Below, one piece after another: positions 17,838 to 44,577 of a stretch of 64,000 nt of DNA (position 1 is its first letter; every line of letters starts with the position of its first letter). Below the pieces are notes generated by a model. The model was not told where the DNA came from. It was given only the letters and a program-made list of their open reading frames with translations, and did no database searches. Where the stretch lies: NCBI RefSeq assembly GCF_015687155.1, contig NZ_JADPQF010000001.1, forward strand, positions 806,001 to 870,000, given 5' to 3'. The translations under genes were made by a program, and so were the position numbers. Origin of the DNA: Aliikangiella sp. G2MR2-5 (GTDB lineage: Bacteria; Pseudomonadota; Gammaproteobacteria; Enterobacterales; Kangiellaceae).

Positions 17838-17965
17838 ATTCGGTCTTAATAATTTATTGCTCATTTAATCTTGTTGGGTTGGAGCGGGATCTTGTGAATC
17901 CAATTTAGCTATGTTTATAGCGCTAGTTTTGAGTTAATGCATTTAAAATCTTAGAGTGAGTCGTG

Positions 17966-18511: not shown

Positions 18512-18624
18512 CCAGAAATATTCTTTGAGCCAAGGAATTATTTAACTTTCAGAGATAAAAAAACAGTTTACGTGCAATCACGGTAGAGAGGCTGATAGAA
18601 TGGTGTTTTAGTTAATTCTCATTA

Positions 18625-19506: not shown

Positions 19507-19520
19507 GAATAGAAATAAAA

Positions 19521-25641: not shown

Positions 25642-26216
25642 ATTTTATTAATAACTATCTTGATAGTTCAATATCAGTTAAAACCAAAATCTTAGCAAGT
25701 GACTCTATTAAGAGCACAATCTCTTTAGTTGCTGAACGCATCATCTGTTGTTTTAAGAGTGGGGGGAAAGTGGTTTTAGCAGGAAATGGCGGTAGTGCAG
25801 CGGATGCTCAACACATAGCTGCAGAGTTTGTGAGTCGTTTTCTTTTTGACCGTCCAGGGTTACCCTCTATTGCGTTAACTACTGATACATCAATGTTAAC
25901 AGCTATTGGAAACGACTATGGTTTCGAAAGTCTTTTTTCCAGACAAGTTCAAGCACAATGTCAAAATGGCGACGTATTTATCGGCATAAGTACTTCAGGG
26001 GAATCAAAGAATATTATTAATGCGGTAGAAGAAGCCAAAAGAATTGGAGTAACGACGGTGGGGCTATGTGGTTCAAGTGGTGTATTGAACGATAGCTGTG
26101 ATTATACCATAGGAGTACCCTCAGATTGTACGTCATATATACAAGAGTCACATATTTGTATAGGCCACATGATTTGTGCAATTGTAGAAAAAGTTCTTTT
26201 TACAAAGGCTGAATAA
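25629..26216 (+). CDS. gmhA: Sedoheptulose-7-phosphate isomerase
   Basis: The 195-residue SIS-domain protein has GNGGSAADAQHIAAEFVSRF, LTTDTSMLTAIGNDYGFE and GISTSGESKNIINAVE, all GmhA signatures, with zinc/active-site residues in SYIQESHICIGHMICAIVE. It converts sedoheptulose-7-phosphate to D-glycero-D-manno-heptose-7-phosphate. A TTG start with AAGGAG seven bases upstream lies inside the end of hddA. A G6 tract (25761-25766) is present near the start of the SIS domain. Confidence 0.95.
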   Translation: MDNLDFINNYLDSSISVKTKILASDSIKSTISLVAERIICCFKSGGKVVLAGNGGSAADAQHIAAEFVSRFLFDRPGLPSIALTTDTSMLTAIGNDYGFESLFSRQVQAQCQNGDVFIGISTSGESKNIINAVEEAKRIGVTTVGLCGSSGVLNDSCDYTIGVPSDCTSYIQESHICIGHMICAIVEKVLFTKAE

Positions 26217-26909
26217 ATGTTCGAAGCGGTTGTTTTGGCGGGAGGTAAAGGGAAGCGATTAAAATCCATTACTGGAGATACTCCCAAACCGATGGTAAAC
26301 ATTAACGGCACTCCCTTTCTTTATCTTTTGATGAGGAGGCTAGAGTCTTTCGGCTGCAAAAAGATTATATTGTCTCTATGCTATAAAGCTGATTTTATAA
26401 TCGAACGTGTAAATCTAGACTCTCCAGTTAAATGTGAAGTTTCTTTTAGCGTTGAACAAAAGCCGTTAGGGACGGGGGGAGCTATTAAACAGGCATCAAA
26501 AAGCGTAACTTCAAATAACTTCTTAGTGCTTAATGGAGATACCTATTTGGATATCGATTACAGTAGCTTGATTAAGCAGTCAAAACCTCTACAAAATTGT
26601 ATATGCTTGGTTAAAGTTAACGAAACAGGTCGTTACGGTAAAGTTGAGCTTGATTCAGATGAACGTATAATATCTTTTACGGAAAAGTCTCAAAATGGCC
26701 CCGGTTTAGTGAATTCTGGAGCGTATGTTTTGAATACTAAATTGATTCAGAATATTGAAAAAGAAGCTTTTTCTTTTGAAAATGAGGTGTTGAGCAATAC
26801 TTACAAAGATTTTTGTGTAGAAAAAGTAGATGTTTCGTTCATTGATATTGGGATTCCGGAAGATTACTTTAAGTTTTGCAAATTAATGCGAGAGTTGGAA
26901 GAAAAGTAA
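26217..26909 (+). CDS. hddC: D-glycero-alpha-D-manno-heptose-1-phosphate guanylyltransferase
   Basis: The 230-residue nucleotidyltransferase begins MFEAVVLAGGKGKRLKSITGDTPKPM. It has the family blocks EQKPLGTGGAIKQA, LNGDTYLDID and NSGAYVLNTK. It would join GTP and heptose-1-phosphate to make GDP-D-glycero-alpha-D-manno-heptose. The start codon follows the gmhA stop directly. The phosphatase GmhB needed between HddA and HddC is not in this window. Confidence 0.88.
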   Translation: MFEAVVLAGGKGKRLKSITGDTPKPMVNINGTPFLYLLMRRLESFGCKKIILSLCYKADFIIERVNLDSPVKCEVSFSVEQKPLGTGGAIKQASKSVTSNNFLVLNGDTYLDIDYSSLIKQSKPLQNCICLVKVNETGRYGKVELDSDERIISFTEKSQNGPGLVNSGAYVLNTKLIQNIEKEAFSFENEVLSNTYKDFCVEKVDVSFIDIGIPEDYFKFCKLMRELEEK

Positions 26910-26926: not shown

Positions 26927-27676
26927 ATGAAAAAGAAACTATTTATAGCCGGATGTGCTCGTTCAGGAACCAGCGCGTTGGCGCATTTGATCGGCGTCAA
27001 CAAAGACGTTGTAATGGGGATGGAAAGGTACGGAGAATTTTATAAAAAGGATGATTTTAGAATTGCGAATAATTTGTTCACAAAAGAACGTTTTTTGGAT
27101 GTTAGAAATGGCGATACCTTTTACGATGATTTCGCAAAATTTCATCGGTGGGACTCGAATATTGAAAATAAACTAATTAACGGTTCTTACAGGTATATAG
27201 GGGACAAGAGACCAGAAATATACGAGGTTTATGACGAAATCTACAGTGTTTTTCCAGACGCTAAATGTATTTTTATCTATCGAGATTTATTTGAAGTAGC
27301 TGCATCCTGGAATAAAAGGGCTGAAGCAAAAGAAAATTGGCCAGCAACAAAAGATTTTAAAAAGGCTGTATTTGCATGGAATAATTCTTTACGACTGACA
27401 TTGAGCGCTTTAGAACGTTATCCAGAAAAAATTGCGTGCGTCAACTATAGAGATGTTTTTATTGATAATAGAAACTTGGGTCCATTATATAATTGGTTAG
27501 AATTAGAGTTCGATCGGGAAACTGTTGAAAAGTATGAAAATATTCTTGCTAATTCATTGAGACTTCAAAAAGAAAGGAGCGAATACTCGTTATCAGCTGA
27601 GCAAAGAGCATTTTGTGAGTCAAATGCAGATTTTAGATTTGAATCTATGTTGGATGAAAAAAATATTCTGTTATAA
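26927..27676 (+). CDS. Sulfotransferase family protein (I)
   Basis: The 249-residue protein has a 5'-phosphosulfate-binding loop AGCARSGTSALAHLIG near residue 7 and a 3'-phosphate-binding segment FIYRDLFEVAASWNKR at about residue 119. These are the PAPS-binding elements of sulfotransferases. It should transfer sulfate from PAPS to a sugar of the polysaccharide or its lipid-linked precursor in the cytoplasm. The ATG at 26927 follows TAAGAG and starts right before the P-loop strand. It is the first of six sulfotransferase genes in this locus. Confidence 0.82.
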   Translation: MKKKLFIAGCARSGTSALAHLIGVNKDVVMGMERYGEFYKKDDFRIANNLFTKERFLDVRNGDTFYDDFAKFHRWDSNIENKLINGSYRYIGDKRPEIYEVYDEIYSVFPDAKCIFIYRDLFEVAASWNKRAEAKENWPATKDFKKAVFAWNNSLRLTLSALERYPEKIACVNYRDVFIDNRNLGPLYNWLELEFDRETVEKYENILANSLRLQKERSEYSLSAEQRAFCESNADFRFESMLDEKNILL

Positions 27677-27682
27677 ACAGGG

Positions 27683-28675
27683 ATGTCAAAGATGAATTAC
27701 GAAGAAAGAATCAAAGCGCAAATTGAACAATATGATAACGTGGAGGATATGCACGGGCAACTTTCTTCTATAATAGACTACTGGAAACGAAAGCACTTTA
27801 AGCCTATTTTTGAAAAAGTTACAGGAGTTAAAAACCATATTGAATTCTATGCAGTGCCGTTCAAGCGAAGCATTGATAAATCAAACACGAAACGTATTAT
27901 TTCTCTCGGAGCGGGTAATGCGGCAGTGGAAATACAAGTAGTAAAGAAACTATTGGAATTAGGATGTGATAACTTTAGTTTTGAAATTCTAGAATTATCG
28001 GAGCATCAAATAAAAAGAGCTCACGAAAACATCGAAAAAGCTGGAATGGTAAAGTATTTTATAGTTAGTCAAGGAGACTTTAATTCCTGGCAACCCAACA
28101 CACAATATGCTGGAGTTATGGCACATCATGCTCTGCATCATGTAATGGAACTTGAGCATTTATTTCAAGCAATAAAACTAGGTCTCGAACCTCAAGGTGT
28201 ATTCGTTACATTTGATATGATCGGTGCAAAAGGTCACGCGAGATGGCCTGAAGCATTAGAGTTTGTTGAAAAAATATGGGCATTTTTACCCGAAAATAAG
28301 AAGTATCATCACCTATTGCGTAAAGAATTCAAAGAATTTTATAATCATGATTGTTCTGACAGAGGATTTGAGGGTATTAGGGCCCATGAAATTTTACCTC
28401 TGTTAGTTGAGTTTTTTAATTTTGACACATTTTTAGGGTATGGAAACTTAACCGATGAGTTTATTAGTAGAGGATATGGTGCAAATTATGATACTTCTAA
28501 TAGCAAAGACTTAGCTTTCATTGACTTTTTAGAGTTTTTAAACTCAGTATTACTTGATTTGGGTTATCTAAAGCCTACCAAGATGGCCGCGATATTAACA
28601 AAGCATGATGTGTCCAAAACCAAATGTTATAAAAATTTAACTCCTGAGTTTTGTATTCGACCACCGTTTGATTGA
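27683..28675 (+). CDS. Class I SAM-dependent methyltransferase
   Basis: The 330-residue protein has a Rossmann motif I (RIISLGAGNAAVEI, about residues 70-83), an acidic strand-2 end (ILELSEHQ) and VMAHHALHHVMELEHLF, typical of the methyltransferase 12 type. It probably O-methylates a sugar of the capsule, judging from its place between two sulfotransferase genes (spacing 6 and 5 bases). The acceptor cannot be deduced. An internal ATG at 27692 is an alternative start. Confidence 0.8.
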   Translation: MSKMNYEERIKAQIEQYDNVEDMHGQLSSIIDYWKRKHFKPIFEKVTGVKNHIEFYAVPFKRSIDKSNTKRIISLGAGNAAVEIQVVKKLLELGCDNFSFEILELSEHQIKRAHENIEKAGMVKYFIVSQGDFNSWQPNTQYAGVMAHHALHHVMELEHLFQAIKLGLEPQGVFVTFDMIGAKGHARWPEALEFVEKIWAFLPENKKYHHLLRKEFKEFYNHDCSDRGFEGIRAHEILPLLVEFFNFDTFLGYGNLTDEFISRGYGANYDTSNSKDLAFIDFLEFLNSVLLDLGYLKPTKMAAILTKHDVSKTKCYKNLTPEFCIRPPFD

Positions 28676-28680
28676 GAGCA

Positions 28681-29640
28681 ATGAACATTCGCGCTAAATT
28701 ATCATTAGTTAAACGGATTACAAGGAAAACTTACGTTACTGTGACAGAAAAAACAAGAAAGTCTAAGGTAGTACTTCTGATAGGAATGCACAGAAGCGGA
28801 ACTAGCATGCTAATGGCTGGCTTGAATAGCTGTGGTCTGGAAGTTGGCGAAAACCTGATGGGAGCGGGCAAGGGCAACCCTAAAGGTCACTGGGAGGATA
28901 TGGATTTTGTCTCTCTCAATAACAAAGTACTCTCTGTCTTAGGTTTAGAGTGGAATTCGCTTGGAACTATCGATGAAGCGCTTTGGGCTAAAGCAGAGTT
29001 TGAGGGGCTCATATTAGAAGGGAGAGAGTTGATCAATTCCCGGCTGGAGGAGTTCGCCAGCGTATTTTCTTTCAAAGATCCCCGAACAATCAGAGTGCTG
29101 CCGTTTTGGCTTAAAGTCGCAGAAACGGCAGAATTTGAGTTAGAATTTATTTTTTCCTTCAGAAATCCCGTCGATGTTTGTCGCTCTTTGGGTAAGAGAA
29201 ATCAGGCGCCTTATATGCTCAGCCAGCTTTTATGGCTGCACCACAACCTGGATTATCTGGAAAAACTGCTGGATGGCAGGAAAAACGTGACCTTTGTTGA
29301 TTTTTTCGATTTTTGCAAAAGCCCGGAACAAGAGCTAACCAGACTATCCAAAGCACTAAACCTCGACGCAAACGCCGAACAAATACTGAAATTTAGCGAG
29401 GAGTTTTATGATCCTGCATTGGTTTCCTATTTAGCAGATCCTTATTCAATTTCTGCGAATGAAAGTATTTTATCCATCTGCTTCGATACCTATCGAATAT
29501 TTCGGCTACTTGCCAGAGACAGAAAACCCGAAAATAACTGGCTAAATGTTGTACAATCATGGAAGGTGGCAGCTCCTTTGTTAGCGCAACAGTTCAAAGT
29601 TTTGAATAGCATTCATCAAAATCAACTGTCCAAAAAATAA
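28681..29640 (+). CDS. Sulfotransferase family protein (II)
   Basis: The protein has about 319 residues. The PAPS 5'-loop is LLIGMHRSGTSMLMAGLN (about residue 32), followed by KGNPKGHWEDMDFVSLNN. The 3'-phosphate segment is FIFSFRNPVDVCRSLGKR (about residue 157). Such proteins are common in polysaccharide loci of marine bacteria. It is the last gene of the first capsule block, before a 688-base non-coding gap. Its G+C content looks a little higher than that of its neighbours, which could mean a separate origin. Confidence 0.82.
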   Translation: MNIRAKLSLVKRITRKTYVTVTEKTRKSKVVLLIGMHRSGTSMLMAGLNSCGLEVGENLMGAGKGNPKGHWEDMDFVSLNNKVLSVLGLEWNSLGTIDEALWAKAEFEGLILEGRELINSRLEEFASVFSFKDPRTIRVLPFWLKVAETAEFELEFIFSFRNPVDVCRSLGKRNQAPYMLSQLLWLHHNLDYLEKLLDGRKNVTFVDFFDFCKSPEQELTRLSKALNLDANAEQILKFSEEFYDPALVSYLADPYSISANESILSICFDTYRIFRLLARDRKPENNWLNVVQSWKVAAPLLAQQFKVLNSIHQNQLSKK

Positions 29641-30328
29641 GCTATCTCACGCGAATTTTACTCTGTCCCGCAACTTTATTTAAACGCTCTATAAAAATCT
29701 TTAAATAACAGTATCTTAGCGTTTACTTTTGTTTTATCGAATCCTGATGAGCATTAACAAACCTGGAACCAAAACGCAGATTTGAGGTTTCGAAAGACTC
29801 TGAGCTGTATCAGGCACACAGGCTTATTAAAATATTTCTCATCCCGTCAAAAAATACCTCAGAAACGATTCAAAATAAGGTAGAATATGCGCGATTTTGA
29901 GATTTGGTTGCCTTTTTATTGAGCATGTAACGGATTTTCCCGTTTGACTGGCTGAAATGAGGTGCTGCGATTAATTGTTTAGAGTTTCTCATGAGAAATT
30001 CGATTGTGTTTTTGACAGCGGCCGATTTCTCAGACATTTCTCGTTAGCTTTGGATTGTTATTGAGATATCAATCAAACAATTGGTTGGATTACACGGCCA
30101 CAAGGCTAGAACTAGCTAGCGCCGTTAGAGCACTACAATATCGCGCAATATAGTCTTTCGGGAATCACCAGGCTGTTATTGCCAGTGTTCGATTAATGAA
30201 CAGTTAACAAGGTTGCGTACCGGTGTCTTCGATAACCGGATAGTTGTAGCCATAGTTATTACTAATAATATTCTGACAAACTCAAATAGTTTGTTTGGCA
30301 TATACAATTTTTGACTGGGTAAGATACG
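29641..30328. other. 688-base non-coding gap between the two capsule blocks
   Basis: No convincing gene is seen on either strand. It contains a perfect 14-base palindrome TTTCTCATGAGAAA (29985-29998) and three further TTTCTC copies (near 29836, 30028 and 30039). A TAGAAT -10-like box lies at 29881-29886. A 7-bp inverted repeat ACAAACT/AGTTTGT (30276-30294) sits just before a CATATACAAT box. The gap may carry a second promoter/operator for the genes from 30329 onward. Nothing recognisable as an insertion-sequence remnant was found. Confidence 0.45.
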
Positions 30329-31369
30329 TTGAAATTAGAAGAATTTGGATATAATTTTCTTGGACCGATATTAAGCGAGTATTTTTTTCGAGTTTTTGAA
30401 AATCTTGAAAAGGAACATGAGATATTCTGCTTGGCAAGAGAAGGCTATTTTTTTAAAAAAATCATCGATCAACTAAAGTCCGAAGAGTTGATAGATGAGA
30501 AAGTAAAGGCAAAATACCTTACAGTATCCAGAGCAGCTCTCTTCCGCTTCTGTGTTGCTGATGCCAATACTTGGGCCTATTCACTTTCGCCCAAATTTAA
30601 AGGCAGCTTTTCCAGTCTATTGCATTTTCGTTATGCAATAAGCGAACAGGATGTTAATGCTATTGTCAGTGCTCAAGATCAGGAAGTCGAAATAGTCTTG
30701 CCCGATGATATGTTCATAGCTGAAGAGTTACTAAGAAAGTACCAAGCTCAATTTCAAGAAGTCGTTAAAAAGTCGTTAAATGCCTATAAAAGTTATCTTG
30801 AAGATATTGGTTTTATGGGCTCGAATAGCCCAGTCGTTTTAGATATCGGTTATTCAGGTACTATCCAAAAGTTACTTTGTCATATGACATCAAAAGACAT
30901 TAGCGGTTTTTATTTTATTGCCAGCAAGCCTGGAGTTCATGCGATTGGTGATTGTAAGGCAACAATGAAAGGCTTGTTTCACGAAGGCATTAAGATAGGT
31001 GATGGACACATTATGTTGGATCGTTCGTTATTTATCGAAAGCCTACTTACCGCGCCAAATGGTCAGTTAATCGATGTTGAATTTAACCACTTACCAGATG
31101 GTGAGAAATACAATTTTTATTATGGTGCTCAAGCAAGCACTCAGAAAAATTTCTTTTTACTTGAATCGGTCATGAAAGGGGCTATTAAAGCAGTCATCGA
31201 AAACTTCAGATTTAATGTGAGATTTAATGCTCAAGAACTCGATCATATTTTTGAGCCTTACGTTACTAAACCATTGGTGATGCCTGGAGGCGTTAAGCAT
31301 TTATTTGAAATCGATGACGCTATTTCCGGGAATGGGAACATCTCATCAAAACAATTATTTAAAATCTAA
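30329..31369 (+). CDS. Polysaccharide-locus protein resembling the C-terminal half of COG5610 HAD-like proteins
   Basis: The 346-residue protein contains IFCLAREGYFFKKIIDQL (residues 33-50), YLTVSRAALFRF (72-83) and VVLDIGYSGTIQKLL (about 170-184). This trio is typical of the second half of large HAD-related proteins found in glycan biosynthesis loci. The HAD phosphatase half is absent here but lies in the next gene (C-terminal part of 31404-33329). The biochemical role is unknown. The conserved DIGYSG looks like a phosphate- or nucleotide-binding loop. Its start is TTG with GGGTAAGA upstream. Confidence 0.6.
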   Translation: MKLEEFGYNFLGPILSEYFFRVFENLEKEHEIFCLAREGYFFKKIIDQLKSEELIDEKVKAKYLTVSRAALFRFCVADANTWAYSLSPKFKGSFSSLLHFRYAISEQDVNAIVSAQDQEVEIVLPDDMFIAEELLRKYQAQFQEVVKKSLNAYKSYLEDIGFMGSNSPVVLDIGYSGTIQKLLCHMTSKDISGFYFIASKPGVHAIGDCKATMKGLFHEGIKIGDGHIMLDRSLFIESLLTAPNGQLIDVEFNHLPDGEKYNFYYGAQASTQKNFFLLESVMKGAIKAVIENFRFNVRFNAQELDHIFEPYVTKPLVMPGGVKHLFEIDDAISGNGNISSKQLFKI

Positions 31370-31403
31370 AACTTAGAGAAATTGGTAAAAAGAGTATTTA
31401 AAC

Positions 31404-33329
31404 TTGAAAACTTTAGTTAGAGCACTTCGAAGAAGGGTGCGTGCATTTAGACAGATCGTAACAAAACCATCAGCGATGAAGCTCTATAAAAAAGCAACAG
31501 TAATGAAGTTGTTTGATAACGAGTATTATCAGGAAAAATATGGTCGGTTTAGTAGTCCTTATGCCGCTTTTTCTGATTACCTTGAAAAATCGAGCTTTGC
31601 AAATATCAACCCTTCGAAGAGTTTTGATACGGAATACTATTTAAGGACCAATCTTGATGTATATCATGCCTGTACAGGAGCCTTACAACATTACCTAAAG
31701 CAAGGAGAGATTGAAGAGAGAAGTATAAACGATGAAATTTCTCGCTGGTCTCCTAAAGGTGAGCTTCATCCAGAAGGAAGTGTTAACGGCTGGCAAGAGC
31801 AAAAAATTGCCATATGCTTGCATATATTTTATGACGACTTTATCGATAAGTTTGCACAGTGTCTCGTAGACTTTCCTGCCAATGTAGACCTATTTGTCGC
31901 TGTGAAAGATGATTTAATGAAAAAACGCGCTATTAAAGTGTTTTCCAAATTGTCTCGCGTCAAAAATGTTAAAGTTGTTGTCGCGCCGAATCGAGGTCGA
32001 AATTTTGGGCCTTTGTTGGTCGAGTTCTCTAAAGAACTGCTCAATTATGATCTTATGTGCCATGTTCATTCAAAGAAAAGTCTATATTCAGGTCGAGAGC
32101 AAAGTCAATGGTCTAACTATCTTAACCAGTATTTGCTTAAAGATGTTCATGTTATTACCACGCTTTTAAAACTCTTTAAACAAAATGATGAACTTGGTAT
32201 TTACTATCCGACATCATTCTGGATGATGCCATCATGGGTTAATCATTGGACATGCAATAGGCCTTTTGTAAATAAGTATTTTCGTGATTGGGATATTACC
32301 CTTAATGGCGATTTTCTTAACTATCCCGTCGGTGGAATGTTTTGGGCAAGACCGGCAGCGGTTCTACAGTGGTTGGCAAAAGATTACCAGTATGAAGATT
32401 TTCCTGAAGAGCCTTTACCAGCTGATGGCTCGTATCTTCATGCTATGGAGAGACTTGTCGGTTTACTTGCGGAGAAAAATAGCTACAAACAGTTTTTTTA
32501 TCACCCTCAGTCTGGAAAATTCACTAAAGACAAATCTTATATTTATATAAATTATGCTAAGAGCGAAAGTAGTCTTAATAATGATTTGAGTGGTGCAGAT
32601 ATCGTTTCTTTTGATGTTTTTGATACTCTATTGAGAAGAAAGTACTTTGTACCTGATTATGCAAAGTTAAAGCTTGGAAAAGTGCTCTCTGAAAAAGGTG
32701 TAGTTTCATCGCCAACAGATTTCATTGAGATGAGAAATCAAGCGGAGCATAGGGTAAGGCTGGAAAAACAATTTCAAAGTGACGTCATTATAGACGAGAT
32801 TTATGAAGAGCTGGGTAAAGTATTTAAATGGTCGGAAGTAGAGCAAGAAGAATATCTGCAATTAGAATTTGAATTCGATCTCGATATGTGCCTCGCAAAA
32901 AATGAAATGGTTAATTTGGCAAACACGCTTTCGCATAATGGAACAGAAATTTGGTTGATTACTGATACATACTACAGACAGAGTCATATTGAAAAAATGC
33001 TTAAGAAAATAGGTCTTGTCTCGCCTTGCAAACTATTCGTTTCATCTGCTATGGGAATGCGAAAAGATAATGGGACCATGTGGAATCATATACGGAGCCT
33101 GACAAAAGATAATGGTAAGAGCTATATTCATGTGGGGGATAATGTCAGAAGCGATTCTCAGTTATGTGGAGACCTTGGGATGATGAATGTGCACATATTG
33201 AATCCATATGACAAGTGGATTGCGGCTGGGTTTGATGATGTGTTGTCAGGACCGATCGATGAGAAAAAAACGATTAAGTGGGGTCGACTAGTATGCAACT
33301 TTGGACGATATCCTTTCTTTGGAGAATAG
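31404..33329 (+). CDS. RgpF-type rhamnan synthesis protein fused to a HAD-like domain, with two FDxxYY repeats
   Basis: The 641-residue protein has three parts. Residues 37 to about 110 carry two of the FDxxYY..HYL repeats seen in the giant glycosyltransferase. Residues about 130-375 match rhamnan synthesis protein F (ICLHIFYDDF, VVVAPNRGRNFGPLLVEF, HVHSKKS, YPVGGMFWARP). Residues about 398-615 form a HAD-type domain with SFDVFDTLLRR, LITDTYY, MRKDNG and HVGDNVRSD, which preserve the usual HAD motifs. It may polymerise or modify the rhamnose-containing backbone, consistent with rmlACDB upstream. The start is TTG at 31404; ATG 31476 is possible. Confidence 0.78.
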   Translation: MKTLVRALRRRVRAFRQIVTKPSAMKLYKKATVMKLFDNEYYQEKYGRFSSPYAAFSDYLEKSSFANINPSKSFDTEYYLRTNLDVYHACTGALQHYLKQGEIEERSINDEISRWSPKGELHPEGSVNGWQEQKIAICLHIFYDDFIDKFAQCLVDFPANVDLFVAVKDDLMKKRAIKVFSKLSRVKNVKVVVAPNRGRNFGPLLVEFSKELLNYDLMCHVHSKKSLYSGREQSQWSNYLNQYLLKDVHVITTLLKLFKQNDELGIYYPTSFWMMPSWVNHWTCNRPFVNKYFRDWDITLNGDFLNYPVGGMFWARPAAVLQWLAKDYQYEDFPEEPLPADGSYLHAMERLVGLLAEKNSYKQFFYHPQSGKFTKDKSYIYINYAKSESSLNNDLSGADIVSFDVFDTLLRRKYFVPDYAKLKLGKVLSEKGVVSSPTDFIEMRNQAEHRVRLEKQFQSDVIIDEIYEELGKVFKWSEVEQEEYLQLEFEFDLDMCLAKNEMVNLANTLSHNGTEIWLITDTYYRQSHIEKMLKKIGLVSPCKLFVSSAMGMRKDNGTMWNHIRSLTKDNGKSYIHVGDNVRSDSQLCGDLGMMNVHILNPYDKWIAAGFDDVLSGPIDEKKTIKWGRLVCNFGRYPFFGE

Positions 33330-33333
33330 AAAG

Positions 33334-34350
33334 ATGCAAATCATCATACATCCTGGACATCCTAAATGCGGGTCTACATCGATACAGAGAGCACTGCTAA
33401 GAAATCGACATAAACTGGCAAAGAAAAATACATATTTTCCGGATAATAATTTTGTTTTTTCGTTTGAAAAAGACTGCAATTTGAGTGCAGATACGCCGCG
33501 TTTGTACTTCAAGAATATTCATTTGTGTCAGAATGAGAGCTCTCTTGAAGAAAGGCTTATAGAATTTGAAAAGCGCTTGATTGAAATAAAAGGATTCGAA
33601 GAGAAATATAACTGTAAAAAAATCATTGTTTCCGCTGAAAATCTGGTCAATAGACTAGGTGGTGCTTATGGTAGAAAGGTTCACGAGTTATTTGCCAAAC
33701 ATTTTAATGATATAAAAATCGTTTATTTTATCCGGTTGCAAGAAGACTTTATTCTTTCTGCCTGGCAACAATGGAGTCATAAAGATGGGACAACAATTGA
33801 AGATTTCGTTAAGCAGTCAATTAGACAGAGTGTACCAAATTATTTAAATGTAAGTCGTTTTTTTGCTAGTTGCTATGGCCAAGATAAAGTTAAGGTTGTG
33901 CCATTACATCCTGACGCTTTAACAAATGGAAATTTGATAGAAGAGTTTATGTTGCAGGCTGGGGTTGATGCAAAGGAGCTGAATACAAAGAATGTTGTTT
34001 TTAACGAAACCTTGAATCCCTATTTGTGTGAAGTGTTGTCTGAAATGAACGGAGTCTACAGCTCTATTCATGACCCATTAGTTAAGAAGACGCTATTGAA
34101 ATTTACTGGAAATGCTAAAGCTCTTTCTGATAAAGCACCACAGTTCTTAAGTTTGTCATTGCGAGAAAAGATACGGAATCACTTTGATAAAAGTAATAAG
34201 ATTCTTCACCGCGAGTTTTTAGAAGAATACAGGTTCGAGTCAATCTTCCAGCCAAAAGATGTCAGTGAAACAGGCCAGAATGACCGTGAGAATCAATATA
34301 AAGAGATTATCAAAGCGCTTATATCGCCGGCACTAATAAATAAAGAGTGA
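33334..34350 (+). CDS. Sulfotransferase family protein (III)
   Basis: The 338-residue protein opens MQIIIHPGHPKCGSTSIQRAL, a PAPS 5'-loop directly at the N-terminus. The 3'-phosphate segment is YFIRLQEDFILSAWQQW (about 130). It has the same layout as the proteins at 35659 and 37890 (N-terminal P-loop, then a loop ending YFP or YPK, then an LR..D/S..LS..Q segment), so these three are paralogues. The ATG at 33334 follows GGAGAATA. It starts five bases after the preceding stop. Confidence 0.78.
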   Translation: MQIIIHPGHPKCGSTSIQRALLRNRHKLAKKNTYFPDNNFVFSFEKDCNLSADTPRLYFKNIHLCQNESSLEERLIEFEKRLIEIKGFEEKYNCKKIIVSAENLVNRLGGAYGRKVHELFAKHFNDIKIVYFIRLQEDFILSAWQQWSHKDGTTIEDFVKQSIRQSVPNYLNVSRFFASCYGQDKVKVVPLHPDALTNGNLIEEFMLQAGVDAKELNTKNVVFNETLNPYLCEVLSEMNGVYSSIHDPLVKKTLLKFTGNAKALSDKAPQFLSLSLREKIRNHFDKSNKILHREFLEEYRFESIFQPKDVSETGQNDRENQYKEIIKALISPALINKE

Positions 34351-34356
34351 TTTAAA

Positions 34357-35628
34357 TTGTTAAGAAAAATTGCGATAAAAAAACCTCAAAACTGTGATGA
34401 GCGACTTACATCTCTTTATGATTTTGCACAAGCTAAATATCAATTTACGGTTGATTTTTTAGTCGATTTGGCGCTTTTTTTTGAAGTTCATGACTTAATG
34501 ATGGCGAAAAAAATAATAGCAGCTGCACGCGAAGTTCGCCCAAACGGTAAAAGAATTCTTCAGCTTGAAAAACGTATTCACGCAAAAGTTGCAAAGCAGC
34601 TGGAACAAGGAGTTGAAGATGAAGGAGAAATTCAAGCTCAATTTCAGTTAAGAGATATTGTTAGAAGGATGAGCGAAAATGGAATGCTTTTGCGTGATAC
34701 ATATCGATTCCTTGATTTAGACAAAGATAACTCAAACAGTCGATATGCAATCGGAGATACTTTATCGGGATTTAATAGCAGTAGTTTGAACGCATTTTTA
34801 ATGCCATATTTAAGAGCTGAAACTCACTATCTTGAAGTTAATCCTGACCAAAATTGTTTACTACGGCCCGAAAATGAAGTTAGAACTAAGCTTCTACACG
34901 CAGTGAATACGGCTAGTCCATTTTCTTTTATTCGTATTGGTGACGGAGAGTCGGCGTTTCTTACGACAAATCTGGGAGACAAAGAAAAAGCAGATCAGAA
35001 TTGCATGTATGAATCTTGGTATGGACATTCAAAGTTTACCGAAAAGGATCGTTTATCCTTTAATAGTTTATTGGTTGAAGCGATTGAAAGCGCTGATATT
35101 CTTGGAATACCAGATTTAGGCCATCAATTATCAGATTTTGAAATTAAAGAGAATCGCTATAGACGAGGGTATACAAGAGCAAATGGTTTGGTGATTGATT
35201 TTCCTCATAAAGTATATTGTTCAGCTTATGTTAATCAGCATTTGCTAAAAAATAGCTTCTTTGATGATCTTTTTGAAAACAAAAATATTAATGTGTCGGT
35301 AATTTCTGGTCATGACGAAAGTAAAGTCAGAGACGCATTTGTAGAAAAGTACAAAGCTAAAATAAGCAATTTTATTAAAGTGCCTACTCAGCATAAATTT
35401 GCCGATAAGTTTAAATACGAGATTAGGGAGGCACATTATCCAACAGCTTTTGAGAGAATTTGTTCTCAGATTAACGTGTCAGACTTGTCTGGTGAATTAT
35501 TTCTTGTCGGTGCAGGGTTACTCGGAAAACATTATTGCCATTTAATTAAACAATCAGGCGGAGTCGCTCTCGATGTAGGGAGCGTTATTGATTACTTGCT
35601 GGGATTTCGTACTCGAAAATATATGTAA
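34357..35628 (+). CDS. GT-D fold glycosyltransferase with N-terminal helical module
   Basis: The 423-residue protein has a C-terminal domain (about 170-423) with the DUF1792/GT-D marks FSFIRIGDGES, ADILGIPD, ISGHDESKV, and LVGAGLLGKHYCHLIKQSGG followed by ALDVGSVID. This fold was described for the streptococcal Fap1 glucosyltransferase. Residues 34-74 (FEVHDLMMAKKIIAAA..RPNG) are a helical hairpin nearly superposable on one in KpsE and in the protein at 36618. The start is TTG with AAGAGTGA upstream. It is interleaved between two sulfotransferase genes, suggesting that transfer and sulfation act in turn. Confidence 0.78.
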   Translation: MLRKIAIKKPQNCDERLTSLYDFAQAKYQFTVDFLVDLALFFEVHDLMMAKKIIAAAREVRPNGKRILQLEKRIHAKVAKQLEQGVEDEGEIQAQFQLRDIVRRMSENGMLLRDTYRFLDLDKDNSNSRYAIGDTLSGFNSSSLNAFLMPYLRAETHYLEVNPDQNCLLRPENEVRTKLLHAVNTASPFSFIRIGDGESAFLTTNLGDKEKADQNCMYESWYGHSKFTEKDRLSFNSLLVEAIESADILGIPDLGHQLSDFEIKENRYRRGYTRANGLVIDFPHKVYCSAYVNQHLLKNSFFDDLFENKNINVSVISGHDESKVRDAFVEKYKAKISNFIKVPTQHKFADKFKYEIREAHYPTAFERICSQINVSDLSGELFLVGAGLLGKHYCHLIKQSGGVALDVGSVIDYLLGFRTRKYM

Positions 35629-35658
35629 AGGACTGAATAGGTAGATAGGACCCATAAT

Positions 35659-36597
35659 ATGACAGACAAAACGCTATATTTACACGTAGGCTGGTCTAAG
35701 ACAGGCACTTCAGCTGTGCAAAATGCGATAAATTCAAATAGTGAACTATTTCTAAAGAAAGACATTTTGTATCCTAAGTCTGTGCAGTGGAATGATCATT
35801 CCCATCATAAGTTTGCATTAGCATTTAATGAGACGTCTGGTTATTCGTCTGAATTCACTTTGAATGATGCTATTTCCGCAGTAGAAAAAGAGTTGTTAGA
35901 GTCAAATTGTCAATCAGTTCTGATATCATCGGAGCTCTCACCTTTCTATTTTGACTTTAAAGAGTTTCGCAATTTTGTAGACCGAAATTTTAATAATGTA
36001 GTGGTGATTTTTTCTTTACGCTTACAGTCAGAGCTGATTTTATCGCTTTTTAATCAACTCGTGAAAGATCCAAATGTACGCTATCCGGGCTCTATTTTTT
36101 CGTTGACAATGGCTAATATAGAGTGGATGGACTATTACAATACAGTAAAAAAATGGGAAGCTGTTGTTGGTAAGGAAAATATAAAAATATTTCTTCACTC
36201 CAAGCATATTGTAGGTGATTTTTTAGACTTTTTTACAATTGAAAAACAGGTTCGAAATACTAAGGATAGTAAAGAGGTCAATGTCTCGGTCCCTAATCAG
36301 CTTTTGCCTGCAATTAAGCAAATTAATGTAAATGTTGTAGATCCTGTACAATATAAGAAAAATCTGGATGAAGTTATCGCTCAGTTTAACTCGATAGCAG
36401 AATTGCGAACTCCAGGGATTTTATACAGTATTCCGGAACAGAGAATGCTAGACAATTATTATAAAGTTTCAAACTCAAAACTTGCTAAAGAGTATTTTGG
36501 TCGAAATGAGCTTTTTGAAGCCAAGCAGTACAAGCCTGTTATGTTTACTCCACTCGCTGTTTTGCGACAATTATCAAAATTAAATAAAGCTGATTAA
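35659..36597 (+). CDS. Sulfotransferase family protein (IV)
   Basis: The 312-residue protein has an N-terminal PAPS loop LYLHVGWSKTGTSAVQNAI, then DILYPKS, and a 3'-phosphate segment IFSLRLQSELILSLFNQL (about 114). It is a paralogue of the proteins at 33334 and 37890; the first 36 residues align with the latter at about half their positions. It should sulfate a capsule sugar using PAPS. Its acceptor is unknown. Confidence 0.78.
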   Translation: MTDKTLYLHVGWSKTGTSAVQNAINSNSELFLKKDILYPKSVQWNDHSHHKFALAFNETSGYSSEFTLNDAISAVEKELLESNCQSVLISSELSPFYFDFKEFRNFVDRNFNNVVVIFSLRLQSELILSLFNQLVKDPNVRYPGSIFSLTMANIEWMDYYNTVKKWEAVVGKENIKIFLHSKHIVGDFLDFFTIEKQVRNTKDSKEVNVSVPNQLLPAIKQINVNVVDPVQYKKNLDEVIAQFNSIAELRTPGILYSIPEQRMLDNYYKVSNSKLAKEYFGRNELFEAKQYKPVMFTPLAVLRQLSKLNKAD

Positions 36598-36617
36598 TTA
36601 AGGGGTTTAATAGTCTC

Positions 36618-37880
36618 GTGAACGACGATATTAAGGTAAAAATTGTCGCAATTGCTAAAGATGAGGGGGCCTACATTGCTGAATGGGTATTCCATCATTT
36701 GTTCATTGGTGTTGATGCAATTGATGTTTACATAAATCGAACGACAGACAATTCATTTGAGGTAATGGATAGAATCAATAAAGAGTATCCGCAGGTTAAT
36801 TGTTATTCGGCTGATTGGACGGATTATTGCCATCCTCAAGTAGGAAAACATTTGCAATATGTTGTTTATGGAAAAGCTTTTGAAGAAAACCGTCTTTCTA
36901 AAGAGTTTGATTATATTCTATTTATTGATGTTGATGAATTTTGGTTTTCTAAGGGGCTAAGAAAGAATATTAAGGAAATTATTCGAGCTGCAAACAAGCC
37001 CATTGCAATGGTCTTTCAGTGGATTAATGAAATGGGGGAGGAACCTCCATTTAGAAAGTTAGGACAAACTGTTAAAGGTTTTTTACATCGAAATGTCAAA
37101 ACGATGCTTCATAGAAATGCTCCAGTTAAGAAACTGATGCTACACTATTCGGAGCTCGATAACGGTAAGGTAGGAGTATTTTGTGACAACCAGCAGTTTG
37201 AATCTGAAGAAAAGCAAAGTCAGTTGTTGAAGAAAGAGCTTAGTAAGTTAAGAGATGTCATGATTATTCACCGCAATAATCGTTCAGAGATAGAATATGT
37301 TTCTTTACTTTCAAGAGGCAGGCCTTCAGATGATATCCCGATAAAGCTAAATAGACATGGGTATAATGTGGGTAAAAAGTTGATTCGACTTGAGTTAGAA
37401 GCAGACGTTTTTCAGCGATATAGAAAAGAACGGGAATTGTTTTTCAAGCGCTTGGATATTGAAACCATAATAAAAGAAGGTCAGCTGTTTGTATTAAAGC
37501 GTGCTGAAAGATGTATTGATTCAATAGATAAAGTTTTACAAAACCATCCACAAGAAACGAGGCGTGTTTTTTGCAATGTTAATTACAAGTCTGTGGTAGA
37601 GAAGTTGGCAATAAAGGCTCATGCAGAAAATTCCAATGTTTCGAAAGATTCCCAAGATGAAGAGCAGTTTATCCCAACTTTTTTTTCATGCTTAAATGCA
37701 TTGTTCAAGAAAGATGCTAACTATCTTAGAGATACTGCCACATATTTCGAAACAAGAAGTCTTTGGTTGGCAAATTTCTTTATTAGAAGGGCTTTTTATG
37801 CGCGGCCCAATGGAGCCTTGATATTGAGAAAAATGCAGCGATATGCACTATTGAGAAGTCGTAAAAGTAGTAGTGAGTAA
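36618..37880 (+). CDS. GT92/GT2_4-like glycosyltransferase with C-terminal helical module
   Basis: The 420-residue protein begins KVKIVAIAKDEGAYIAEWVFHHLFIGVDAIDVYIN and has LFIDVDEFW (metal-binding DxD) near residue 108. It belongs to the Glyco_tranf_2_4/GT92-type GT-A enzymes. After the catalytic domain there is a helical linker, and residues 369-408 (FETRSLWLANFFIRRA..RPNG) repeat the module found in KpsE and the GT-D enzyme. The start is GTG. The module being C-terminal here but N-terminal in the other two proteins shows it is a mobile domain. Confidence 0.75.
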   Translation: MNDDIKVKIVAIAKDEGAYIAEWVFHHLFIGVDAIDVYINRTTDNSFEVMDRINKEYPQVNCYSADWTDYCHPQVGKHLQYVVYGKAFEENRLSKEFDYILFIDVDEFWFSKGLRKNIKEIIRAANKPIAMVFQWINEMGEEPPFRKLGQTVKGFLHRNVKTMLHRNAPVKKLMLHYSELDNGKVGVFCDNQQFESEEKQSQLLKKELSKLRDVMIIHRNNRSEIEYVSLLSRGRPSDDIPIKLNRHGYNVGKKLIRLELEADVFQRYRKERELFFKRLDIETIIKEGQLFVLKRAERCIDSIDKVLQNHPQETRRVFCNVNYKSVVEKLAIKAHAENSNVSKDSQDEEQFIPTFFSCLNALFKKDANYLRDTATYFETRSLWLANFFIRRAFYARPNGALILRKMQRYALLRSRKSSSE

Positions 37881-37889
37881 TCAGAAAAA

Positions 37890-38879
37890 ATGAATAAACC
37901 TACGTTATACCTACATATTGGGATGAATAAGACGGGGTCGTCTGCACTTCAGTATTGGTTCAATCAAAATAGAGAAGCGCTTTTGGATCGAGGGATACTC
38001 TATCCGAAAACAGGGATCTCTGGTGTCGCTCATTATGGTATCAGTGATATTTTAGGATTTACAGGGAAAAACAGGGAAGATGGTTTAGAGATAAACGACA
38101 TTGATTATCTTAAAAGTTCTCTTTGCAAAGAAATTAATTCTTCATCTGCAAATAAATTGCTTATTAGTTCAGAGAACTTTGTTCTAAATAGGAGTCTAGT
38201 AGATGTTGAGTCTGCCTTTTCCGATTTTGAATGTAAGATTTTGGTTTATTTACGAAGACATGACTCATGGTTGGAGTCTGCTTACAATCAATCTCTTAAG
38301 ATGGTGCATCAGCCAAAATATGGTAAAGGTATAGAAAAATTTATCGTAAACACTAATAAGAAGACGAAAAATGCTAATTACCGTTACTTGGTAGATAGGT
38401 GGGCTCGCGTTTTTGGGAAAGAGAACATTATTATCCGTCCATATGAGTCCAAGATAATGAGTTCAGGCATAGTGCCTGACGTTCTTGATATATTGGGTTT
38501 AAGAGCGGAAGAATTTTTCGCTTCAAATCTAAACAAAGTTAACGCTTCTCTTTCTAATAGGGCAAACGCGATTTTGGAAGTGGCACAGCGATCGGGACTT
38601 AGTAAAGAGCAAGTTAGCATTGTTTTAGATTATCTGAAGAAAACAGATGAAGTAAGACAGAAGGTAAGTCTTCTATCTCCTAAAAGAAGAAGACAAATAG
38701 TAAAGAATAATCAGAGTCAATATTCTTATTTATCAAAAAAATTTCTAAATGGTAAGCAATTATTTAGCGAACCTGTACCCATGGATGACGAATCATGGAC
38801 GACGTTCAAGAGACCGAGTGAAGAAGAGATTGTGTCAGAAATATTAAAGGCTCTAAATGTGTCAAAGCATCAGTATTGA
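37890..38879 (+). CDS. Sulfotransferase family protein (V)
   Basis: The 329-residue protein has PAPS loop LYLHIGMNKTGSSALQYWF, GILYPKTG, and the 3'-phosphate segment ILVYLRRHDSWLESAYNQS (about 116). It is the closest relative in this window of the protein at 35659. It follows the preceding stop by nine bases and precedes another sulfotransferase gene by 15 bases. It is presumably cytoplasmic; no signal peptide is seen. Confidence 0.78.
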   Translation: MNKPTLYLHIGMNKTGSSALQYWFNQNREALLDRGILYPKTGISGVAHYGISDILGFTGKNREDGLEINDIDYLKSSLCKEINSSSANKLLISSENFVLNRSLVDVESAFSDFECKILVYLRRHDSWLESAYNQSLKMVHQPKYGKGIEKFIVNTNKKTKNANYRYLVDRWARVFGKENIIIRPYESKIMSSGIVPDVLDILGLRAEEFFASNLNKVNASLSNRANAILEVAQRSGLSKEQVSIVLDYLKKTDEVRQKVSLLSPKRRRQIVKNNQSQYSYLSKKFLNGKQLFSEPVPMDDESWTTFKRPSEEEIVSEILKALNVSKHQY

Positions 38880-38894
38880 AATAGGTGAAAGTTA

Positions 38895-39608
38895 ATGAGT
38901 TTTCTTAGTAGCAAATTGGTTGGTTTTTTTAATTCCAACGTAGGTAAAGAGGAACTATCTGTAGTAAGAGCAAGACAGATGGAGGAAAATAATGTATGGA
39001 AGCGCTGCTGGAAAGAACCTTTTGATCAGACGAAGTCGATTTTTATTCACATTCCTAAGGCTGCTGGGACAAGTATTTCACAATCATTATATGGCGAAAA
39101 TACCTTTCACTTTACTGCCGATACGTATAACTTCTTACCTAGAGAAGATTTTAACGAGTATTTTAAATTTGCTTTCGTCAGAAATCCTTATGAAAGAATT
39201 CTAAGTACTTACAAGTATAGTTTTAAACAGTTTAAAGAACACCCTAAGACTTCAGTAGCTTTTGTTACACGTTTTAAAAGTTTCGAAAATTTCGTTCTAG
39301 AATGGGTTAATAGAAAAAATATCAGTAAACATTACTTTTTTTACACGCAAGAGCGATATATTTCAGATCAAACTGGAAAGTTACTGGTTGATTATATTGG
39401 AAAATTTGAAACTGTTGATGAAGATTTTAAGTTTGTTGCTCGAAAATTAAATATAGATAAGGAGCTAATGCATACAAATAAATCGCCAAAACGAAAAGAA
39501 GAGACTGTTTATACTGAGGATATGGCTAACAAAGTATTTAATGTATATAAAAACGATTTTATGTTGTTTGGCTATGATAAAGAATCGTGGAAAAATGTTG
39601 GACGCTAG
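38895..39608 (+). CDS. Sulfotransferase family 2 protein (VI)
   Basis: The 237-residue protein has SIFIHIPKAAGTSISQSLYG (5'-PAPS loop, about residue 48) and FAFVRNPYERILSTYKY (3'-phosphate site, about 93). These are the marks of the Sulfotransfer_2 family that includes animal heparan/chondroitin/dermatan sulfotransferases. It belongs to a different sulfotransferase family from the other five in this locus, so it probably has a different acceptor. It ends the tight gene run 30329-39608 before a 365-base gap. Confidence 0.85.
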   Translation: MSFLSSKLVGFFNSNVGKEELSVVRARQMEENNVWKRCWKEPFDQTKSIFIHIPKAAGTSISQSLYGENTFHFTADTYNFLPREDFNEYFKFAFVRNPYERILSTYKYSFKQFKEHPKTSVAFVTRFKSFENFVLEWVNRKNISKHYFFYTQERYISDQTGKLLVDYIGKFETVDEDFKFVARKLNIDKELMHTNKSPKRKEETVYTEDMANKVFNVYKNDFMLFGYDKESWKNVGR

Positions 39609-39973: not shown

Positions 39974-42478
39974 ATGATGCTTAATAAGTTGAACGCTGTG
40001 CATAAAATCCAAAAGCTTAAACAAATTGCCATTTTAGCCGCCAAAATTGTTTTGGGTAATCGCTATTACTCGTTGAAGGCTTTTTTGTTTCAACGATATT
40101 CAAAATTTTCAATAGAGCGACCCAAAATATCTGAGTCTGGTTTTACAGGGTTTATAAACTTTGCCAATTATTTTAGTAGTACCGGGTGGGTGGTTGATTC
40201 TGAGGGTAAAGCCGTCAAGAACTTTGACTTATACATTGATGGAAATAAAGTTAGCTACTTCAAACAAGAAGTTTTTAGAAAAGATATTATCGACGCATTT
40301 GCACATGATGGTGATTGTGGATTTGAAATTCAGTTTTTAAATAACAATAACAGCTCCTTTAAGCCGAGCTCATATCTTTTGGAGATTAAGTGCTCAAAAA
40401 CTCACAGGCTAATACATAGAACCCAAGTAAACTTCAGGTGCAAAAAAACTCAAAGCAGAAGGAGGAATAAGAGAACATCTGATGTTGTTTCTATGAATCT
40501 TACTAAAGAAGCGTCTGTTGAAGTTGATGTTGTTATTCCTGTCTATGCCGGAAGAGAGGTGACTCTGGACTGTATTAGTTCAGTTCTAGCTTCGAAAACA
40601 AAAATACCTTATCGAATAGTCATTGTTAATGATAAATCTCCAGAGCCTGATTTGGTTTCTGAAGTTAGAAGGATCACCGGAAGTAATAGCCGAGTAGTAT
40701 TGCTCGAAAATGATTCTAATCTTGGATTTGTATGTTCGGTCAATAAAGGAATGAAGTATGACTTGTCAAAGGACGCCATTCTACTAAATTCTGACACATT
40801 GGTCTCGGACTATTGGTTAGACAAGCTAGTGTCAGCTGCTTATGCATTACCTGAAATTGCAACCGTTACTCCTATGTCCAATAATGCAACAATTTTTAGT
40901 CTTCCGATCCCTAATCCTCGAATTGATTATTCTGAACCTGCCTCTATCGATGAAATTAATAAGCTTCTTGAGAAAAATGCTAGCGGGAAGAGGATTGAAG
41001 TTCCTACAGCTCACGGCTTTTGTATGTACATAAAACGTAGCGTATTGGAACAGATTGGATATTTCGATGAAGAGAAATGGGGCAAAGGTTACGCAGAAGA
41101 AAATGACTTTAGTCGACGAGCAATTGATGCTGGTTATATCAATGTTGCTGCTTGTGATGTATACGTTAAACATGTTGGTTCAGTTTCTTTCGGCTCATCT
41201 GCAGCGGATAGAATTACCAAAAATCTACGTAAGCTGAACCGAATGTACCCAGATTATCTGCCTGCTGTTGAAACATTTATCAAGAAAGATCCGTTTAGAG
41301 CTCTTAGAAACAAAATTAATGAGCAATTATTAGATAATGCAAAAATAGAAGGAAGAAGGAAAGTGCTTCATGTTACTCACTCGTTAGGAGGGGGAACAGA
41401 GTACGCGATGCAATCAATAATTGAAGTGTCTTCAAAGTTTGAGGTTCAGAGCTATATTTTAAGAGCTGAACAAGGAGGGCGAGTCTGGATTCTACAAAAT
41501 TGTCCCCAATCATTGTGTATGGAATTTGATTGTCTGACTGACCTGGAACAATTAATTGATGTGCTAAAAAAACTTGAAATCAACTTGATTCATTTTCATC
41601 AGCTGCTGGAATTTGACCGCCGCATATTTGATCTACCTAGATTATTGAACGTATCATACGATATTGCGTTGCATGATTACTATCTAATTTGCCCTAGAGT
41701 TAATATGCTGCGCGATAAAGATGAGTATTGCGGAGGACCATCAGATGCATGTTTAAAGTGCGTAACTTCATACGGTTGTCACCCGGCTTCCAACAAGCAA
41801 ATAGGCTCTGAGAAAGAATACACAGAGTACTGGAGGCTAAGTCAGCAGTTTATGAATGGAGCAAGGAAGTTGATTGCCCCAACAAAAGGGGTTCAAGAGA
41901 AATTCTCAAGGTGCTATGATGGGAATAATATCGAAGTAAAGGCTCATCCGGAAACAAGAATTGAGAGATATTTAAGGTTAGATACAGCTAACCAAACTAT
42001 AAAAGTGGCTATTCTTGGAGCGATTGGTGTTCATAAAGGAGTTTTAAAGCTGATTGAGATACTTAAATACGCTCATAGGGAAAAGCTTCCAATCCAATTT
42101 GTTTTGTTTGGTTATGTCTCGGAACATCTTATATCATCACTACATCCAAACCTGACCATTACAGGAAAGTACAAACAAAGTGAATTAACCCATCTTATCG
42201 ATAAGTATGGCTGCGATAGAGCATTGTTTTTAAGCCCGTGGCCGGAAACATTCAGCTATACACTTTCCGAAGCATATGAACATGGACTTTATCCAATAGC
42301 ATATGATCTAGGCGCTTTCTCTGATCGAATTCCCGAAGTAGGAGTTGGAGAACTATTTGGCGCGGGCACTTCGATGGAAGAGCTTTTTCAACTACTAATG
42401 AATAAGCCTTTGCCAGAGATAAGTTATATTACTGGAAAGCAATATTCGAATTTTGCCACCGATTACTATGAATTTTAG
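39974..42478 (+). CDS. Two-domain glycosyltransferase (GT2 + GT4) with N-terminal accessory domain
   Basis: The 834-residue protein starts with a basic region. An accessory region follows (about residues 55-160; SGFTGFINFANYF, TGWVVDSEGKAVKNFDLYIDG) that looks like a small beta-sandwich. The GT2 domain is about 176-425 (DVVIPVYAGREVTLDC, VNDKSPEP, LNSDTLVS, GYAEENDFSRRA), and the GT-B domain is about 455-834 (VLHVTHSLGGGTEYAM, ILGAIGVHKGV, LSPWPETFSYTLSEA). A cysteine cluster (YCGGPSDACLKCVTSYGC) lies between the halves of the GT-B domain. It probably adds two sugars of the repeat. No strong SD is seen before the paired ATGs. Confidence 0.83.
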   Translation: MMLNKLNAVHKIQKLKQIAILAAKIVLGNRYYSLKAFLFQRYSKFSIERPKISESGFTGFINFANYFSSTGWVVDSEGKAVKNFDLYIDGNKVSYFKQEVFRKDIIDAFAHDGDCGFEIQFLNNNNSSFKPSSYLLEIKCSKTHRLIHRTQVNFRCKKTQSRRRNKRTSDVVSMNLTKEASVEVDVVIPVYAGREVTLDCISSVLASKTKIPYRIVIVNDKSPEPDLVSEVRRITGSNSRVVLLENDSNLGFVCSVNKGMKYDLSKDAILLNSDTLVSDYWLDKLVSAAYALPEIATVTPMSNNATIFSLPIPNPRIDYSEPASIDEINKLLEKNASGKRIEVPTAHGFCMYIKRSVLEQIGYFDEEKWGKGYAEENDFSRRAIDAGYINVAACDVYVKHVGSVSFGSSAADRITKNLRKLNRMYPDYLPAVETFIKKDPFRALRNKINEQLLDNAKIEGRRKVLHVTHSLGGGTEYAMQSIIEVSSKFEVQSYILRAEQGGRVWILQNCPQSLCMEFDCLTDLEQLIDVLKKLEINLIHFHQLLEFDRRIFDLPRLLNVSYDIALHDYYLICPRVNMLRDKDEYCGGPSDACLKCVTSYGCHPASNKQIGSEKEYTEYWRLSQQFMNGARKLIAPTKGVQEKFSRCYDGNNIEVKAHPETRIERYLRLDTANQTIKVAILGAIGVHKGVLKLIEILKYAHREKLPIQFVLFGYVSEHLISSLHPNLTITGKYKQSELTHLIDKYGCDRALFLSPWPETFSYTLSEAYEHGLYPIAYDLGAFSDRIPEVGVGELFGAGTSMEELFQLLMNKPLPEISYITGKQYSNFATDYYEF

Positions 42479-42544
42479 TTTAGTTGTAAAGGTTAAGAAT
42501 GATTTTTATTTGGAAATGATTCCAACAGATTTAGTAAAAATAAT

Positions 42545-43339: not shown

Positions 43340-43342
43340 TAG

Positions 43343-44290: not shown

Positions 44291-44577
44291 TAAATAGCAA
44301 GTGTAGCGATTAATGACTTTCTGAATGAAAGCTAGGATAGTTCTCAAAATGTTTATTTCGACTATTAGTTGTAGAGTAATGTGGCAAAGTCGTAGTGAGA
44401 TTTTTTAGGCTGGAAGGTGTTCAGTTGTTTAGAATAGAATATTACTATAATAAGCTGGCTACTGATTCAAATTCGGTTCTCTTGTAAGCGTTACAAAATC
44501 TAATTCTGAATTTTATTGAATTGAAAAGCAAGAGTTTTGATGTCTTTAGTCCAGAACGATTTTTAGAAAAGGATGAT

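Follow-up and report, generated by a model that had tools for sequence, protein, structure and literature searches.

We analysed a window of 64,000 nucleotides from Aliikangiella sp. G2MR2-5 (C1:806001-870000, on contig NZ_JADPQF010000001.1; genome of 5.0 Mb, rated 100% complete), in which a polysaccharide locus carries six sulfotransferase-type genes, here ST1 to ST6, on the + strand (Table 1; some other genes are called by their start position). The reading frames of all six are intact and together span 12.7 kb. The initial annotation of this DNA had described six genes with recognisable 5' and 3' segments for binding the sulfate donor 3'-phosphoadenosine 5'-phosphosulfate (PAPS), falling into at least three subgroups, and both points were borne out by open reading frames (ORFs), Pfam and a motif test: two genes are PF13469-like, three have little or no Pfam match and one belongs to PF03567. 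Each protein has a 5' PAPS-binding (5'-PB) loop near its N-terminus and a 3'-PB R-x7-S motif after a hydrophobic strand. Among the 68 ORFs of the window (at least 100 codons, six frames), the combined pattern (5'-PB [GP]..[KR]xG[TS][ST], hydrophobic strand, R-x7-S) was matched by five of the sulfotransferases only, and shuffled copies of the sequences satisfied it in at most 2 of 5000 cases. ST6, the only PF03567 match in the genome, carries the form of that family (HIPKAAGTS ... VRNPYERILS), which, read directly from the sequence, also contains R-x7-S. The likeness of one enzyme to heparan/chondroitin-type sulfotransferases, also proposed at first, thus stands for ST6 at the level of the Pfam family, but it says little about a glycosaminoglycan because PF03567 is present in 90 of the 370 genomes in our survey of the class (taken as Gammaproteobacteria).

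ST3, ST4 and ST5 form one family, whose 37-member profile matches sulfotransferases in the PDB (3rnl, E 8e-8); single-sequence phmmer searches of ST3, ST5 and ST6 against the PDB gave nothing useful. The fold check covered ST3, described as the most divergent of the six. Its AlphaFold model has a predicted local distance difference test (pLDDT) score of 89, and its best structural match is again 3rnl (Z 14.6, 221 residues, 4.5 Å), with NDST1 at Z 14.1, heparan 3-O-sulfotransferases at Z 13.2-14.1 (14.1 for 3-OST-3/5) and adenylate kinases at Z about 9 (9.2). We consider it highly improbable that some members, mainly ST2 or the group with no Pfam match, are P-loop kinases or transferases that use another donor: while their Pfam matches are weak or absent and the general fold is common to P-loop kinases, all six have the R-x7-S 3'-PB motif, sulfotransferases lead kinases by about 5 Z units in the fold list, and every PDB profile match is a sulfotransferase. 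By sequence, then, the six genes are read as encoding PAPS-type sulfotransferases, whose activity and acceptors cannot be read in the same way. Pairwise identities among them are 16-31%, so the six genes are not recent duplicates; recent tandem duplication is ruled out by these identities and by the separate clades described below.

Table 1. Features of the polysaccharide locus, in window positions
Feature	Coordinates	Strand	Basis
WecA-type polyprenyl-phosphate sugar-1-phosphate transferase, predicted initiator	10741..11811	+	PF00953 E 2.6e-32
Outer-membrane polysaccharide export (OPX) protein	12236..14074	+	PF02563 and SLBB domains
ABC-2 polysaccharide transporter, membrane subunit and ATPase (Wzm/Wzt, KpsM/KpsT-like)	14080..15515	+	PF01061, PF00005
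Wzz/KpsE-like polysaccharide co-polymerase (PCP-like)	15525..16937	+	PF02706 E 1.3e-4, below cut-off
dTDP-L-rhamnose genes rmlA, rmlC, rmlD and rmlB-type dehydratase	16962..20609	+	
GDP-D-glycero-D-manno-heptose genes: hddA-like kinase, gmhA isomerase, hddC-like guanylyltransferase	24613..26909	+	
ST1 sulfotransferase	26927..27676	+	PF13469 E 5.8e-14; 5'-PB GCARSGTS, 3'-PB IFIYRDLFEVAAS
S-adenosylmethionine-dependent methyltransferase between ST1 and ST2	27683..28675	+	PF08241 above cut-off
ST2 sulfotransferase	28681..29640	+	PF13469 E 2.5e-5, just under curated cut-off; GMHRSGTS and IFSFRNPVDVCRS
Predicted PRPP-type ribofuranosyl-5-phosphate transferase	30329..31369	+	AlphaFold fold; without sequence family match
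RgpF-type glycosyltransferase with fused C-terminal HAD phosphatase	31404..33329	+	PF05045 E 1.1e-48, weak HAD matches, TIGR02253
ST3 sulfotransferase, no-Pfam group	33334..34350	+	No Pfam match; AlphaFold fold match
GT-D fold-like glycosyltransferase	34357..35628	+	PF22882 E 1.2e-16
ST4 sulfotransferase, candidate rhamnose 2-O-sulfotransferase	35659..36597	+	No Pfam match; clade with RgpF-adjacent enzymes
GT2/GT92-type glycosyltransferase	36618..37880	+	PF13704 and PF01697 above cut-off
ST5 sulfotransferase, group of ST3/ST4	37890..38879	+	PF00685 E 0.006, below cut-off; GMNKTGSS and LVYLRRHDSWLES
ST6 sulfotransferase	38895..39608	+	PF03567 E 1.9e-14, 54.9 bits vs cut-off 22
Further glycosyltransferases and a protein with two methyltransferase-domain matches (44521-45981)	39974..46871	+	

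The sulfotransferase genes alternate with glycosyltransferase genes and a methyltransferase gene in two same-strand runs (26217-29640 and 30329-39608), with intergenic gaps of 4-34 bp inside each run and 688 bp between them. The gene-free 688 bp (29641-30328) could be a promoter or a joining point. Upstream of the sulfotransferase genes lie the predicted initiator, the export genes, a two-domain glycosyltransferase and the sugar-nucleotide genes. Rhamnose (RmlA, C, D, B), heptose (HddA, GmhA, HddC) and methyltransferase genes are all present, as had been reported; the heptose models (NF049969, 381 bits; gmhA models, 180-187 bits; NF049965, 180 bits) are each the best-scoring for their gene, yet under their own curated cut-offs.

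A genome-collection scan yielded 80 related loci of up to 20 kb each. Counted with home-made profiles (E up to 1e-3) in loci cut at 20 kb, one sulfotransferase-type gene was found in 44 loci, two in 19, three in six, four in 10 and five in one, so that 17 of the 80 hold three to five. In the class survey, an unrelated locus (L106) has seven candidates in 20 kb, some of them weak, and L103 and L104 together have five. A count of six is therefore at the upper end, though not without parallel. Across the 370 genomes, the family of ST3, ST4 and ST5 occurs in 51; PF13469 occurs in at least 226 and is not usable for cluster counts. The view that so many sulfotransferases in one locus is remarkable, and that sulfated bacterial capsules are rarely described, was overstated, given these counts in neighbouring lineages and two close precedents (PMC11641403, PMC11766843). 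Elsewhere in the genome, Sulfotransfer_3 domains are found at C1:366046, C1:369871, C23:130775, C23:182718 and C32:76402, in open frames of 548-670 codons. Two further ones (C1:598682-599326 and C1:602912-603550) lie within one 5409-codon open frame; AMP-binding, PP-binding, sulfotransferase and condensation domains follow in order around the second, a nonribosomal peptide synthetase with internal sulfotransferase domains.

Gene 30329 and the RgpF-HAD (haloacid dehalogenase) gene 31404 are kept as a cassette in 17 related loci, with RgpF-HAD adjoining the 30329 homologue. Together with a sulfotransferase gene they recur in loci from Halomonadaceae, Alteromonas, Pseudoalteromonas, Thalassotalea, Oceanimonas, Reinekea and Pokkaliibacter, and, with rml genes, in another genome of the same order (L108). 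As the scan set out from sulfotransferases, it covered the 30329/RgpF pair only where one is nearby. A quick tree places all of the 14 enzymes encoded directly after RgpF, that of Cobetia amphilecti N-80 included, in a single clade with ST4 (support 94, and 95 when one row was added). In this tree ST3 lies with enzymes of Halomonas and Alteromonas, and ST5 with those of Thalassotalea, Thioalkalivibrio and Keguizhuia. ST4 is 41% identical to the N-80 enzyme, and the N-80 locus (L084, with the cassette at 7005-10930) reads rmlB-D-A-C, 30329 homologue, RgpF, sulfotransferase, with the 30329 homologue, RgpF-HAD and ST4 orthologue in the same order as here. Cobetia with a sulfotransferase gene adjoining RgpF and rmlBDAC makes rhamnose 2-sulfate, and this arrangement has been read as rhamnose 2-sulfation in strains including N-80, which is named as sharing the cluster type; the assignment is by gene position, the structure having been solved for strain KMM 1449 only (PMC11766843). 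ST4 probably sulfates the RgpF-linked rhamnose, at 2-O by analogy with Cobetia. In the literature searched we found no report of the ribosyltransferase-like/RgpF-HAD/sulfotransferase cassette.

Gene 30329 has no family match in Pfam or NCBIfam, and a PDB profile search found no sequence similarity to known ribosyltransferases; the likeness is in fold only. Its AlphaFold model (pLDDT 89.7) matches the ribofuranosyltransferase 7shg (Z 25.4, 310 residues) and, at Z 22.6, the CriT region of Bcs3 (8a0m), the capsule enzyme of Haemophilus influenzae type b (Hib); the next unrelated fold is at Z 5.6. The same fold is common to 30329 and the phosphoribosyl pyrophosphate (PRPP) ribofuranosyltransferases of Hib (Bcs3 CriT/CrpP, PMC10299916), Thermobacillus composti (7shg) and Klebsiella O4/O7 (PMC11231755). 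CriT binds PRPP via S678-R679-D680, S707-R708 and E818 (PMC10299916). In 30329, A36-R37-E38-G39, S67-R68 and D172 are invariant in 17 of 17 aligned proteins; they come in turn after the first three matching strands, in strand-loop-helix places that seem to correspond to those of CriT, with conservative swaps. The HAD domain of 31404 has the motifs DVFDT (residue 404) and GDNVRSD (residue 578); of the two Asp residues of DxD it retains just the first, as does CrpP, the partner phosphatase of CriT (PMC10299916). From fold and residues we infer that 30329 and the HAD domain of 31404 look like a split PRPP-dependent ribofuranosyltransferase, in which 30329 probably adds a ribose-type sugar. The known systems differ in that here the transferase stands alone, the phosphatase is fused to RgpF and 30329 neighbours a sulfotransferase. 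Evidence against a ribosyl function is the repeat of Cobetia KMM 1449, which lacks ribose (PMC11766843); ribose could then belong to a linker, or the enzyme may use another donor. N-80 carries the cassette although this related strain has a ribose-free capsule repeat. A bolder proposal, that 30329, 31404 and ST4 are an undescribed marine gammaproteobacterial module building a sulfated rhamnose/ribofuranose unit, around which six non-redundant sulfotransferases write dense sulfation, is speculative and in our judgement improbable as a whole.

The search for cysND and cysC that the initial annotation had suggested located them about 20 kb downstream of the window, cysD starting at about C1:889561 and followed by cysN and cysC to about 892542. 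Past the window, sugar-nucleotide genes (galU, pgi, ugd-type and manB/manC-type, read from the sequence) precede cysD, cysN and cysC, and a DHHA1-domain protein and a DASS/TrkA_C permease follow. The DHHA1-domain protein between cysC and the permease (L003:2558-3529) could be a phosphatase of 3'-phosphoadenosine 5'-phosphate that clears the sulfotransferase by-product. The genome has a single cysC, which rules out a dedicated second set of PAPS genes, and one PAPS-reductase-family gene besides cysD, elsewhere in the genome and probably cysH.

The claim of a sulfated surface polysaccharide is supported by the six sulfotransferases, the export genes, the rhamnose and heptose genes and cysND/cysC. 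Overall, it is very likely that the locus makes a polysaccharide that is sulfated in the cytoplasm by six PAPS-dependent enzymes, with PAPS supplied by CysDNC, and exported to the surface by the ATP-binding cassette (ABC) transporter. The predicted product is a polysaccharide of rhamnose and heptose, possibly also ribofuranose, that carries multiple sulfates, is initiated by WecA and leaves the cell through the ABC transporter. The WecA-type enzyme would start the chain on undecaprenyl phosphate, and glycosyltransferases would add rhamnose, manno-heptose and other sugars. The six sulfotransferases would modify different hydroxyls or residues in the cytoplasm and methyltransferases would cap or decorate the chain, which Wzm/Wzt, the PCP and the OPX protein may then export. 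CysDNC would supply PAPS, and the neighbouring DASS-type permease may import sulfate. Several observations weigh against this interpretation. ST2 falls slightly short of the Pfam curated cut-off; the single cysC and the one other PAPS-reductase-family gene indicate that cysDNC also serves ordinary sulfur assimilation and is no proof by itself; and no homologue of KpsC/KpsS (PF05159) was found genome-wide in a search whose control was positive in E. coli, so the product is not a capsule of the Kdo (3-deoxy-D-manno-oct-2-ulosonic acid)-anchored group 2/3.

The sulfated glycan is well supported, while the capsule proposed at first is plausible and less well supported. A sulfated O-antigen of lipopolysaccharide, or a released exopolysaccharide, seems a somewhat unlikely product: the WecA-type start, the Wzm/Wzt-type transporter and the lack of KpsC/KpsS would fit ABC-dependent O-antigens, but the locus has OPX and PCP-like proteins, which O-antigen export does not need, and the capsule cluster of Vibrio KMM 8419 has the same kind of set (PMC11641403). 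We infer a capsule, as opposed to slime or O-antigen, with this reservation. Vibrio KMM 8419 makes a capsule with rhamnose 3-sulfate from a cluster that has three sulfotransferases beside WecA, RgpF, an ABC transporter and cysNDC, and the presence of both sulfotransferases and PAPS genes in a cluster has been named a hallmark of sulfated capsules (PMC11641403). Common to both loci are WecA, RgpF, rml genes, ABC export with KpsD/M/E/T-type proteins, several sulfotransferases and cysNDC (PMC11641403). The Vibrio cluster differs in having kpsS, second cysNDC copies inside the cluster, glucose but no heptose in the repeat, and three sulfotransferases where there are six here; its product is proven to carry rhamnose 3-sulfate. 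Cobetia marina KMM 1449 and C. amphilecti N-80 have rml genes, PAPS genes and a sulfate permease in common with our locus, but Cobetia has a KpsS/KpsC group III capsule, mannose and glycerol phosphate, and a reported repeat without ribose, and the N-80 locus has three sulfotransferase-type genes in its 20 kb. The synechan (xss) cluster of Synechocystis PCC 6803 is likewise a surface-polysaccharide cluster with sulfotransferases of different subfamilies, and its product is proven sulfated (PMC8205485); it differs in Wzx/Wzy export, two sulfotransferases and cyanobacterial regulation.

These relatives also bear on how much sulfate the polymer would carry. The predicted 'heavily' sulfated capsule goes beyond the evidence, as the number of enzymes bounds the distinct sites and not the degree of substitution. 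That only some of the six enzymes act on the glycan, the rest being relics or acting on other substrates, so that sulfation is as modest as in related polymers, with one sulfate in each repeat, comes close to an even chance. Vibrio KMM 8419 has one sulfate per repeat despite three sulfotransferases (PMC11641403), and mutation of the synechan sulfotransferase gene xssE has little effect (PMC8205485). However, reading frames and motifs are intact in all six, and ST3, ST4 and ST5 fall in separate clades with relatives elsewhere, which argues for distinct, maintained roles. That all six enzymes are active is likewise our reading of the genes, as are their acceptors and the order of the sugars.

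Beyond the sulfotransferases, the polysaccharide genes are immediately followed by a 2191-residue protein that combines six DUF7933 domains with bacterial Ig-like repeats (49026-55601). An FG-GAP/UnbV_ASPIC repeat protein with a cytochrome c554/TPR neighbour lies inside the window (59649-61571), and just past it comes another protein of FG-GAP type which, as read from the sequence, also has a TPR neighbour (L002:3778-5553).

Overall, the locus looks like a new and richly equipped example among the sulfated capsules that have lately been reported for marine bacteria. Should the glycan prove as sulfated as its genes imply, the bacterium would offer, in compact form, six polysaccharide sulfotransferases that differ in their predicted targets; such enzymes are sought for the synthesis of heparin-like and algal-type glycans. 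Through the cassette, a sulfotransferase with no Pfam match is connected, in a way open to testing, with a chemically known linkage, the rhamnose 2-sulfate of Cobetia, and offers a likely function for the unannotated 30329 family, which is present in many marine bacteria.

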